Of a stretch of DNA of 64,000 bases, positions 7,875-23,807 are shown piece by piece. The notes beneath the pieces are model-generated. The model was not told the DNA's origin, did not search any database, and was given only the letters and a program-made list of their open reading frames with translations. The DNA comes from Alphaproteobacteria bacterium (GTDB lineage Bacteria > Pseudomonadota > Alphaproteobacteria > Micropepsales > Micropepsaceae): positions 1-64,000 of the forward strand of contig JANXXU010000030.1 of the NCBI GenBank assembly GCA_025350465.1, written 5' to 3'. Made by a program: the position numbers and the translations under genes. Every line of letters starts with the position of its first letter. Position 1 is the stretch's first letter.

Positions 7875-7963
7875 GCCCTCTTGGCGGAACTGGTAGACGC
7901 AACGGACTTAAAATCCGTTGTTCTGAAAAGGACGTGCCGGTTCGAGTCCGGCAGAGGGCACCA
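7875..7963 (+). tRNA. tRNA-Leu (anticodon UAA)
   Basis: Acceptor stem GCCCTCT (7875-7881) pairs with AGAGGGC (7953-7959), followed by A and an encoded CCA. The D-arm contains the conserved GGTAGACGC, the anticodon arm is CGGACTTAAAATCCG with UAA, a long variable arm follows as expected for leucine tRNA, and the T arm is CCGGTTCGAGTCCGG. It is complete, with no sign of an integrated element at its 3' end. Confidence 0.97.
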
Positions 7964-21459: not shown

Positions 21460-22296
21460 ATGGAACGGCCGTTGCCGACGATTGCCGAAAAGTTTGCGAT
21501 TTGCGATCCAGTCTGGTCGCAAATGCGCGAGGAGGCATTGCGCATCTCGCGCACCGAGCCGGCGATCGCCAGCTTCGTGCATGCGACCGTGCTGAATCAC
21601 GAACGGCTCGAGGACGCGCTCACTTTCCATTTGGCTCAGAAGCTCGGCAACAGTGACGTCGGCCCGATGGTCGTGCGCGAAGTCTTCCAGTCCGCGCTCG
21701 ACGACGAGCCTTCGATCAGCGACGCGGTGCGGGCGGACTTGTCGGCCGTCTATGAGCGCGATCCGGCCGTCAACACCTACGTCGAGCCGTTCTTGTTTTT
21801 CAAGGGCTTCCTCGCGCTGCAGGCTTATCGCATCACGCACTGGCTGTGGGCGAAGGACCGCACGACGTTTGCGCTGCATTTCCAAAGCCGCATCTCGGAA
21901 GTGTTCGGCGTCGACATCCACCCGGCCGCGCAAATCGGGCGCGGCATCATGATGGATCACGGCACGGGCATTGTGATCGGCGAAACGGCGGTCGTCGAAG
22001 ACGACGTCTCGATGCTGCACGGCGTGACGCTCGGCGGCACCGGCAAAGAGCAGGGCGATAGGCATCCCAAGATCCGTCGCGGGGTCATGCTGGGCTCGGG
22101 TGCGAAGGTGCTCGGCAATATCGAGGTCGGCGCGTATAGCCGTGTCGGCGCGGGTTCCGTGGTCTTGGCGCCGGTGCCGGAGCGTTGCACCGTCGCGGGC
22201 GTACCGGCGCGCGTGGTGGGTTGTGCCGGTTGTCCGCAGCCGGCACACGAGATGGACCAGCTCATCCAAGACGCGGACAACGACTACCAAATCTGA
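21460..22296 (+). CDS. cysE: Serine O-acetyltransferase
   Basis: A 278-residue enzyme that makes O-acetylserine from serine and acetyl-CoA, the first step of cysteine synthesis in the cytosol. An N-terminal helical SATase domain (about 10-150) with the block FLFFKGFLALQAYRITHWLW precedes a left-handed beta-helix acetyltransferase domain. The latter contains DIHPAAQIGRGIMMDHGTGI, GVTLGGTGKEQGDRHPKI and GAGSVVL. The C-terminus ends in NDYQI; a C-terminal isoleucine is the feature CysK uses to dock on CysE. It is monocistronic. Confidence 0.96.
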   Translation: MERPLPTIAEKFAICDPVWSQMREEALRISRTEPAIASFVHATVLNHERLEDALTFHLAQKLGNSDVGPMVVREVFQSALDDEPSISDAVRADLSAVYERDPAVNTYVEPFLFFKGFLALQAYRITHWLWAKDRTTFALHFQSRISEVFGVDIHPAAQIGRGIMMDHGTGIVIGETAVVEDDVSMLHGVTLGGTGKEQGDRHPKIRRGVMLGSGAKVLGNIEVGAYSRVGAGSVVLAPVPERCTVAGVPARVVGCAGCPQPAHEMDQLIQDADNDYQI

Positions 22297-22307: not shown

Positions 22308-22343
22308 GCAAAAGCAAAGAAGGCCGCCCCGAGGGGCGACCTT
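22308..22343 (-). terminator. Terminator hairpin at the end of the 22.4 kb small-ORF transcript
   Basis: Stem AAGG-CCGCCCC with GGGGCGA-CCTT (22320-22343) contains one C-A mismatch. On the minus strand it is followed by CTTTGCTTTTG. It therefore fits termination of a minus-strand transcript carrying the 26-codon ORF. It may also slow transcription leaving cysE, but the plus-side tail is not T-rich. Confidence 0.65.
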
Positions 22344-22388
22344 CCGTGAGACTGGCTGTCGAACAGCCGAGATTTAGATCTCAGACCG

Positions 22389-22469
22389 TTATGCCGACAC
22401 CAGAGGTTGCTCCAGAGTCTGCAAGACGTGCCCGTGAACCTTCGACAGCACCATGATCTCACTCGACAT
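22389..22469 (-). CDS. Predicted 26-residue small protein with an extreme Shine-Dalgarno sequence
   Basis: A minus-strand ORF of 26 codons starting MSSEIMVLSKVHGHVLQTLE and ending PLVSA with TAA. Five to six bases before the ATG is AGAAAGGAGGTGATCC (22470-22485), complementary over its full length to the 3' end of 16S rRNA. This is far stronger than any other site in the window. Downstream the transcript would form hairpins GAGAT/ATCTC (22370-22383), GGCTGT-TCG-ACAGCC (22354-22368) and the terminator at 22320-22343. The FAD oxidoreductase ends 60 bases upstream. It could be an independent small gene, a leader peptide, or part of a small RNA. Family not recognised. Confidence 0.6.
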   Translation of the reverse strand: MSSEIMVLSKVHGHVLQTLEQPLVSA

Positions 22470-22529
22470 AGGATCACCTCCTTTCTGAAGTTGACGACGC
22501 ACTATATTTGCATGTGCCGCGCGCAAAGT

Positions 22530-23807
22530 TCAAGGCAAGCGATCGCGCAGCGCGTACCACATCATTCCCAAGGTTAAGAGCGGGCGGCGAAGCATTGCGC
22601 CGCCTGCGATTGCGGGCACGGCGAGGCTTTCGTAGACGGCGAATTTCTCTGCCTCGCCGGCGATGGCATCGGCAATTAATTTGCCCATCTGTGTGGCTAT
22701 AGCGACACCTTGGCCGGAGTAACCTTGCGCGAAATAGATGTTCGAGCCGAGCTGGCCAACATGGGGCAGGCGCGGCAACGTGATGGCCAGAGTGCCGTCC
22801 CAAGCGTAGTCGATGCCGATGCCACTAAGCTGCGGGAACGTACGCTCCAGATAAGGCCTGACGAATTCGCCGATGTCGCGCGGGCCGGCGCCGTAGGTTT
22901 CGCCGCCGCCGAAAATCAATCGGCCATCCGAAGATAGCCGATAGTAGTCGAGAACGAATTTCGTGTCCGCGACCGCGGCGCGCGACGGGATCAGAGCGCT
23001 CGCGCGCGCTTCGCCGAGCGGCTCGGTGGCGACGATATAGTTGCGGATTGGCAGGATTCGGTTTTCGATATCAGGCACTAAGCGCTCGACATAACCGTTG
23101 CAGGCGACGACCGCGAACTCGCATTCGATGCTGCCGCCGCTCGTGCTCAGGCGTATTTTCTTGCCGCGATCGATGCCGATGACACGCGTATTCTCGAAGA
23201 TTTTCGCGCGCGCGGTTTCGGCTGCTCTTGCGAGGCCAAGAGCATAGTTCAGCGGGTGAAGGTGAAAGGCGTCGGTATCGAAATAGCCGCCGAAATAGCG
23301 CTCGCTGGCGACCAGCGAGGGCATTTCTTCGCGCGGCACGTAGCGGCCGTGGCCATAGCCATAGCGGGTGGCGAGATGATCGGTGTATGCTGAGAGATGT
23401 CGGGCGTGGCTTGGTTTTGCCGCGGCGGCGATGTGGCCAGACGTGACGTCGCAAGAGATCGCATGCTCGGCGATCAGAGCGCGGACAAGGTATTTCGCTT
23501 CCTGAGCGAGATCCCACAACGCGCGGGCGCGCCCATCGCCGTAGTTTTTCTCAAGCGTGTCTTGATCGACGCGCTGACCGGTGATCACCTGTCCACCGTT
23601 GCGCCCGGAGGCGCCGGCGCCCACGCGCCCGCGTTCGAGAACGGCGACGCGAAGGCCGCGAGCGCGTAGGTGCAGTGCGGCCGACAAACCGGTGTAGCCG
23701 GCACCGATCACGCCAACATCGAAACGTTGGTCGCCTTTCAGCGGGGCGCGTTCGCGTTCGCGACGCACCGTCGCCTCATAGTATGAATCTTCGAACCGCG
23801 CCGGCAT
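22530..23807 (-). CDS. FAD-dependent amine/amino-acid oxidoreductase (DAO fold, PuuB-like)
   Basis: A 425-residue DAO-superfamily flavoenzyme. The N-terminal leader MPARFEDSYYEATVRRERER resembles gamma-glutamylputrescine oxidase and related proteins. It is followed by the dinucleotide motif VGVIGAGYTGLSAALHL (about 32-48), LERGRVGAGASGRNGGQV with the GASGRNGG block, and the C-terminal FAD contact FAQGYSGQGVAIATQMGKLI. Likely oxidises a secondary amine or a polyamine derivative; substrate not determinable. An agmatine deiminase is encoded 28 kb away, so a polyamine link is only suggestive. The small-ORF gene lies directly downstream. Confidence 0.88.
   Translation of the reverse strand: MPARFEDSYYEATVRRERERAPLKGDQRFDVGVIGAGYTGLSAALHLRARGLRVAVLERGRVGAGASGRNGGQVITGQRVDQDTLEKNYGDGRARALWDLAQEAKYLVRALIAEHAISCDVTSGHIAAAAKPSHARHLSAYTDHLATRYGYGHGRYVPREEMPSLVASERYFGGYFDTDAFHLHPLNYALGLARAAETARAKIFENTRVIGIDRGKKIRLSTSGGSIECEFAVVACNGYVERLVPDIENRILPIRNYIVATEPLGEARASALIPSRAAVADTKFVLDYYRLSSDGRLIFGGGETYGAGPRDIGEFVRPYLERTFPQLSGIGIDYAWDGTLAITLPRLPHVGQLGSNIYFAQGYSGQGVAIATQMGKLIADAIAGEAEKFAVYESLAVPAIAGGAMLRRPLLTLGMMWYALRDRLP

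Follow-up and report, generated by a model that had tools for sequence, protein, structure and literature searches.

The 64,000-nucleotide stretch of alphaproteobacterial DNA analysed here (the window) carries on its minus strand a real, conserved element of a known though little-studied kind, which is probably a stand-alone small mRNA with an extended Shine-Dalgarno (SD) sequence, akin to rreB, rreR and the Rfam family CC2171. The contact between RNA and ribosome would itself be the function of such an RNA, and translation would gate its folding and decay. The anatomy of the element (Table 1) and its conservation are established, its distribution is taxonomically restricted, the length of its open reading frame (ORF) is constrained, and the two strands of its closing helix, P1, covary between lineages.

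Table 1. Anatomy of the element, in window coordinates.
Feature	Position	Strand	Details
Likely promoter	22504..22533	-	-35-like TTGAAC at 22533-22528 and extended -10-like TGcAAATAT at 22512-22504
Whole transcribed element, about 178 nt, CC2171 homologue	22316..22493	-	cmscan match to RF01867 at 22493-22321
Extended SD, complement of the full 16S 3' end	22471..22486	-	AGAAAGGAGGTGATCC
26-codon ORF	22389..22469	-	MSSEIMVLSKVHGHVLQTLEQPLVSA and stop TAA; ATG at 22469-22467, TAA at 22391-22389
P1, 5' strand	22456..22462	-	GUGAGAU, codons 3-5; partner 22352-22346; covaries between lineages
P1, 3' strand	22346..22352	-	GUCUCAC, immediately 5' of the terminator; partner of 22462-22456
Internal imitation of the 16S 3' end	22402..22413	-	GGA-GCA-ACCUCU, complementary to the element's own SD (GGAGGU..UCC)
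Hairpin A	22369..22382	-	GAGAU/AUCUC; in the consensus fold of 8 genus members
Hairpin B	22354..22368	-	GGCUG/CAGCC; competes with an extension of P1; in the consensus fold of 8 genus members
Intrinsic terminator	22316..22345	-	GC-rich stem at 22345-22318 (12 pairs, 4-nt loop) and T-rich tail

The hidden gene of 26 residues, the full-length anti-16S site and the three downstream hairpins of the original prediction are all present, and the unit that they form is found in relatives. A single base separates the extended SD from the ATG. All 16 nt of the SD pair perfectly with the 16S 3' end as found in the same genus: the 16S antisense end of genome G092 (locus L208) has exactly the same 16 letters as AGAAAGGAGGTGATCC. 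The site had also been called far stronger than any other in the window, and so it is: when the window's 16-mers that contain GGAG, GAGG or AGGA are compared, predicted pairing with the 16S tail is -28 to -29 kcal/mol at the element and -18.2 kcal/mol at the next unrelated site. Within the window AGAAAGGAGGTGATCC is the sole match with two or fewer mismatches, and one other site has three; shuffled sequences hold a mean of 0.34 sites with three or fewer. The 4.06-Mb assembly has this one exact copy and thus shows no 16S end carrying the motif. The uniqueness in the window, the pairing energy and the taxonomic distribution of the pattern rule out a chance SD. An antisense copy of a 16S gene is ruled out as well, since the sequence departs from 16S right after GATCC, unlike the 16S antisense at L208.

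The 5' end of the element is placed where the RF01867 model begins. A scan for the sigma-70 consensus upstream of the element found no promoter. Judged by eye, eight genus members have a promoter-like block of CTYGAM followed after about 17-18 nt by TGnnAATMT, which makes a dedicated promoter likely; in the window its -35-like TTGAAC overlaps the stop codon of the upstream gene. The predicted fold of 22500-22310 is better than that of 200 out of 200 shuffles (z -3.87), and in the minimum-energy structure the long-range helix P1, joining codons 3-5 to the strand before the terminator, takes the place of the second hairpin. The start codon of the window is predicted to be open (0.88 unpaired). 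The SD is no more buried in the window's lineage than in shuffled sequences (0.37 unpaired vs 0.31), which counts against the internal pairing of the SD described below, whereas its accessibility is much lower than in shuffles in Rhodobacterales (0.03 vs 0.32) and lower in Bradyrhizobium (0.11 vs 0.25).

The comparison with relatives that the original prediction had proposed found conservation at several depths. With up to three mismatches the unit is present in 8 of 11 genus genomes, including all six of good quality, and related units occur across the class. The lack of conservation that the original prediction gave as part of its refutation is not observed. The pattern GAAAGGAGGTGRTCNNRTG is found in 35 of 96 family genomes, which are also everything returned for the order; the 28 loci fetched from the family outside the genus, with one further pattern-bearing genome (G095) left out, all have VSHC-type ORFs and lack the window's MSSEI type. 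When genomes were drawn evenly across the phylum and assigned to classes by a hand-made list, the exact SD-start pattern GAAAGGAGGTGATCNNRTG occurred in 65 of 135 alphaproteobacterial genomes and in none of the 263 from other Pseudomonadota; a reversed control pattern is absent among the matches listed. The match is single in 64 of the 65 genomes. One genome has two matches to the extended SD and start on different strands, at G106:C1 805112 (+) and 2922051 (-).

A pattern scan of public genomes gave at least 119 stretches (L043-L161), and among the matches listed 80 titled stretches are from Alphaproteobacteria or unspecified Proteobacteria bins. The ORFs fall into peptide groups, named from peptide and record titles rather than from a tree: a 14-aa group VS...KRCHLAGIAR (Bradyrhizobium where a title is given), an 18-aa group VSR/VSG (Rhodobacterales), MSHG, mostly of 18 aa (Sphingomonadales), MSSDF/MSSEF, the MSSEI group of the window, and many of type (M/V)SHC/R. 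The 14-aa and 18-aa ORFs with GTG starts presumably correspond to rreB and rreR, whose lengths they fit. On an Azospirillum contig (L114, 6757-6777, +) the same full-length SD precedes a 59-aa ORF resembling a secreted small protein.

The RF01867 (CC2171) model aligns to the element over its full length (positions 1-159 of 159), with 43.7 bits and E values of 4e-8 in 351 bases and 1.1e-7 in the genome. This score is below the curated 75-bit cut-off, which is reached in 0 of 11 genus genomes. Beyond the full-length alignment, the two share the CAAC start, GAAAGGAGGUGAUCC, the start codon, the closing helix, a GGA and the terminator. They differ in the ATG of the window as against GTG, in the MSSEI-type ORF as against an SHC-type reading of the model consensus, in the P1 strands GUGAGAU/GUCUCAC, in the score below cut-off, and in the filing of CC2171 by Rfam as an sRNA. 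Matches with E ≤ 0.01, weak ones included, number 96 of 385, and 13 are over the cut-off. In control genomes 2 of 14 match at E ≤ 0.01, one of them being Caulobacter itself, and 6 of 14 at E ≤ 1, so the spread of the element was judged from the pattern counts instead. A gathering-level Rfam scan of 18 loci without SHC-type ORFs, seven of them window-type, returned no RF01867. In Rfam 15, RF01867 is listed with the families for which R-scape brought an improvement, here the addition of one covarying pair (PMC11701678).

The statistics below are based on 149 elements: 6 (L002-L007) found by an SD-fixing pattern, 27 (L013-L042) by Rfam search, and 116 (L043-L161) by a pattern fixing the SD, the spacing and TC after the start. 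L015, L024 and L028 were left out because they misfit the SD expression, and L054, L076 and L082 as incomplete stretches. Of 146 elements tested, all but one (L160) yielded a terminator-like hairpin, which scored as strong in 140; the 145 are what remained after the filter of ≤30 aa had dropped L099, L114 and L135 and the terminator caller had missed L160. The p values take no account of relatedness among the elements.

The length of the ORF is constrained. In frame 0, 146 of the 149 elements stop after 14-26 codons, none earlier and three later, while only 22 and 25 stop at 14-26 codons in frames 1 and 2, where 65 and 55 stop earlier; of shuffled bodies, 24% stop in that range. Translation thus appears to be under constraint. 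The length constraint would also suit a functional small-protein gene with an unusually strong ribosome site, an account that we nevertheless consider unlikely. Uncapped BLOSUM scoring favours frame 0 in the 26-aa window-type group (p 0.005) and in all but one of the six SHC/R length groups (p 0.005 or less), but not in the 25-aa window-type group (p 0.425). When scores are capped, which stops single tryptophans dominating, and with codons 1-6 excluded, only three SHC/R groups stay favoured in frame 0 (p 0.005-0.01); the window-type values become 0.365 (25 aa) and 0.055 (26 aa) for frame 0 and 0.015 and 0.125 for frame 2, and frame 2 comes out ahead of frame 0 in three groups, namely the 25-aa window-type one (p 0.015), Rhodobacterales (p 0.040) and Sphingomonadales (p 0.005). 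Variability is highest at the third codon position of the 26-aa window-type group (1.29 vs 0.94 and 1.21 bits), an excess that is not consistent over groups. Some VSHC-type subgroups do give an in-frame signal, and a LEQP or PEQP block is common to the genus members seen; however, P1 pairing accounts for the first residues, other frames preserve the EQP block at the RNA level, and between lineages the peptides of 14-26 aa have nothing in common past the start. Searching the family with the peptide gave one clear further match (G088) besides three weak ones, and the peptide is thus of little use for tracing the element. The abundant small protein of the original prediction is weakly supported: the peptides diverge between lineages, and the full-score signal in one of two window-type length groups weakens with capping. 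An RNA in contact with the ribosome, or a dual-function RNA, would fit better. Conservation seems to bear on the RNA and its ribosome contact more than on the encoded peptide.

The partners of P1 change together between lineages. Its strands are CAUUGUC/GACAAUG, CAUCGC/GCGAUG, CAUGGUU/GACCAUG, GUGAGAU/AUCUCAC or GUCUCAC, and AUGAGAUU/AAUCUCAU, depending on the group, with GUGaUUUC/GGAAaCAC holding one mismatch. In a terminator-anchored test of 140 elements, the 5' strand scores 14.7 with its cognate partner and 10.3 with non-cognate ones, compared with 10.8 and 10.3 when the same strand is set against a neighbouring stretch; a point against the explanation preferred here is that deeper ORF windows also fit their own pre-terminator strand better (14.8 vs 11.9). 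The signal is strong in SHC/R, in Sphingomonadales and in the window's group, weak in Rhodobacterales and not seen in Bradyrhizobium, the fraction of non-cognates doing as well being 0.343 and 0.582 in the last two. The conclusions on P1 rest on this anchored test and not on an earlier one with unrestricted duplex energy, which was noisy and significant overall, as were two ORF control windows (mean rank 0.33 in the window's lineage, 0.46 in Rhodobacterales, and 0.89 in VSDR with three elements). Like RF01867, the window has a closing helix just before the terminator, and the helix has partial support inside the lineage. In the 14 sequences of the window's group, 83.9% of the P1 cells are paired and the inner end often fails; two well-paired columns have changed on both sides, and a third such change lies in a column with 9 of 14 unpaired. 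P1 is absent from the alignment consensus folds of this group, which have the SD paired back to a site inside the ORF instead; the two pairings cross, so one nested fold cannot hold both.

That site is the internal imitation of the 16S tail. In most members of the MSSEI group, GGAGCARCCUC lies at a near-constant distance from the start and varies little in an otherwise variable ORF. Over nine pairs and 14 lineage members, 124 of 126 cells of the pairing between copy and SD are standard pairs, and of the 20 cells with a change, 18 still pair, as G-U or G-C; 7 of these 18 belong to an A/G column that doubles as the last position of the Gln codon where EQP is in frame. RNAalifold picked this pairing unprompted in the 14 members and also in the 8 genus members, where the covariation term of the fold gave no gain. 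The same letters stand in another frame in L108 and L140, and a similar GGAUC...GCCUC of the SHC types in yet another, so there are simpler explanations of the copy than a peptide motif. Against codon shuffling, the motif, whose expression was written after it had been noticed, is found in 11 of 14 MSSEI elements (0.6 expected), 7 of 13 SSDF (0.4), 10 of 48 SHC/R (1.5) and 7 of 24 further family SHC loci (0.9), and in 1 of 10 others. It is absent from 28 Sphingomonadales, 17 Rhodobacterales, 7 Bradyrhizobium and 3 SDR-type elements; other anti-SD stretches, for example CCACCUCCU and UCACCUC, occur in Rhodobacterales and Bradyrhizobium. The recurrence of a 16S-tail imitation inside the ORF in different frames is suggestive.

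Forced folds of the window give -78.1 kcal/mol with P1 and -75.4 kcal/mol with the SD pairing. P1 comes within 0.1 of the minimum in 12 of 16 members; two members (L041, L197) have the SD-paired state as their minimum. The fraction of shuffled regions that pair back to the SD as well as the real one is 0.22 in the window's lineage, 0.31 in SHC/R, 0.11 in SSDF, 0.14 in Rhodobacterales, 0.42 in Sphingomonadales, 0.28 in SDR types, 0.06 in Bradyrhizobium and 0.17 in other elements; with shuffled SDs the values are, in the same order, 0.19, 0.37, 0.15, 0.09, 0.45, 0.46, 0.08 and 0.23. SD back-pairing is therefore suggestive, and absent in Sphingomonadales.

If the element is a small mRNA of this kind, a 30S subunit would dock on the 16-nt SD through its whole 16S tail and start at the ATG one base on. 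The ORF would have to be translated, with only a loose constraint on the peptide. P1 would close the RNA onto the terminator stem, and because codons 3-5 are its 5' strand, a docked ribosome and P1 would be mutually exclusive. In the window's lineage the internal copy could re-pair with the SD in competition with the ribosome, and translation through the ORF would keep the copy off the SD. Without ribosomes, the RNA would close by P1 or by SD back-pairing. The RNA would then switch between being bound by a ribosome and being folded in one or two ways, and ribosome occupancy would set its fold, presumably its lifetime, and the strand it exposes if it acts in trans. A bolder and less probable proposal is that the element is throughout the class a cis-acting sensor of free 30S subunits and not a coding gene, in which the RNA's own copy of the 16S tail would vie with the ribosome's for the SD, with P1 as the readout. 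The imitation, placed in the ORF or before the terminator of several lineages in varied frames and places, would tentatively be read as part of such a device.

Among the other accounts, an RNA that titrates ribosomes or stores 30S subunits, its 16-nt SD parking them and its ORF being incidental, seems slightly less likely again than a small protein. The complementarity is maximal and the site exceeds every other in the window by about 10 kcal/mol, the Caulobacter relative is filed as an sRNA in Rfam, and the RF01867-annotated candidate MH_s33 of Mesorhizobium huakuii is given with sequenced ends in the available part of its source (PMC5596092). A single match in 64 of 65 genomes would, however, require very high expression, and the constraint on ORF length implies that translation matters. 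The element might instead be transcribed as the tail of the upstream mRNA for an FAD-dependent oxidoreductase, forming its 3' untranslated region and terminator and perhaps being processed to an sRNA, but this is improbable. The oxidoreductase gene (22530-23807, named from its translation) is on the same strand with its stop 43 nt from the SD, and it adjoins the element at all six genus loci examined (L002-L007, L007 being the window's; L194 and L197 were left out), but the recurrent neighbours in Rhodobacterales and Sphingomonadales are other genes, and the promoter-like block lies 5' of the element in the 8 genus members.

The short ORF, alternative folds and terminator would also suit the leader peptide of an attenuator for a neighbouring gene, as would an ArfB-like gene downstream on the same strand in 13 Rhodobacterales loci. 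For the window this account is very improbable. The next gene downstream, cysE for serine acetyltransferase (21460-22296, +; named from its translation), which is found at four of the six genus loci (L002, L004, L006 and L007), is convergent and leaves nothing to attenuate; an attenuator of cysE is thus largely refuted there by gene order, as no same-strand gene comes next downstream. The ArfB-like gene, a ribosome-rescue release factor from its translations, lies for example about 800-1500 nt after the SD in L043 (cluster median 199-660) and possibly hints at a link with ribosome rescue. A VUT/YhhQ-like transporter gene, likewise named from translations, lies upstream in 17 Rhodobacterales-type loci.

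The small mRNAs rreB of Bradyrhizobiaceae and rreR of Rhodobacter/Roseobacter, described by Hahn et al. 2017 (RNA Biol 14:1353), reportedly have an SD of at least 16 nt and a very short ORF (peptides said to be of 14 and 18 aa, with an rreB transcript of about 165 nt), and rreB RNA is said to co-sediment with 30S and to be stabilised when its start codon is changed to a stop. The mechanism proposed above agrees with these rreB data. The window resembles both in that a short ORF directly follows a stretch of at least 16 nt able to pair with the 16S 3' end. Its peptide differs, with 26 aa, an ATG start and an unrelated sequence that is neither of the 14- nor of the 18-aa type, and its start codon is open, whereas the predicted folds of the rreB- and rreR-type loci hide the start codon and the SD (0.11 and 0.03 unpaired). 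Of the features that a short transcript of its own would need, the element has a terminator and a putative promoter suggested by conservation. The literature found on this RNA comprises a citation of Hahn et al. 2017 (PMC7298713) and the mentions of RF01867 (PMC5596092, PMC11701678), and no priority is claimed for the link between CC2171 and rreB or for the internal 16S copy.

The window thus adds a variant, and the comparison adds the covariation of P1, the link between CC2171 and extended-SD mRNAs and the suggestive internal copy of the 16S tail. If this is right, CC2171, the small mRNAs of Bradyrhizobium and Rhodobacter and a large further set including Sphingomonadales would be a single alphaproteobacterial RNA whose design centres on touching the 16S tail. 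In the available passages of Schrader et al., 75.4% of Caulobacter coding sequences have no SD, and two earlier Caulobacter ncRNAs are translated while most are not (PMC4117421); with most Caulobacter genes lacking an SD, a conserved RNA with a maximal one is a pointed exception. The dual-function RNA rnTrpL of Sinorhizobium, as described in the passages available (PMC10117765), is likewise a short RNA with a translated short ORF, but the SD of the window spans the whole 16S tail and no trans target is known for the element. The extended SD motifs of Staphylococcus aureus are also longer than the usual core and, by the title of the paper, are a general feature of translation (PMC13009471), whereas here one alphaproteobacterial small RNA is concerned. 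The passages available on Zymomonas (PMC7566282), on B. japonicum transcription start sites (PMC4842269) and on a B. japonicum sORF (PMC5082802) hold nothing specific to this RNA.

Two Bradyrhizobium loci (L083, 7030-7100; L093, 3346-3416) have a tRNA gene on the strand opposite to the element, some 150-230 nt upstream. The sole RNA gene of the window over the Rfam gathering or ARAGORN thresholds is a tRNA-Leu (TAA) at 7875-7963 (+).
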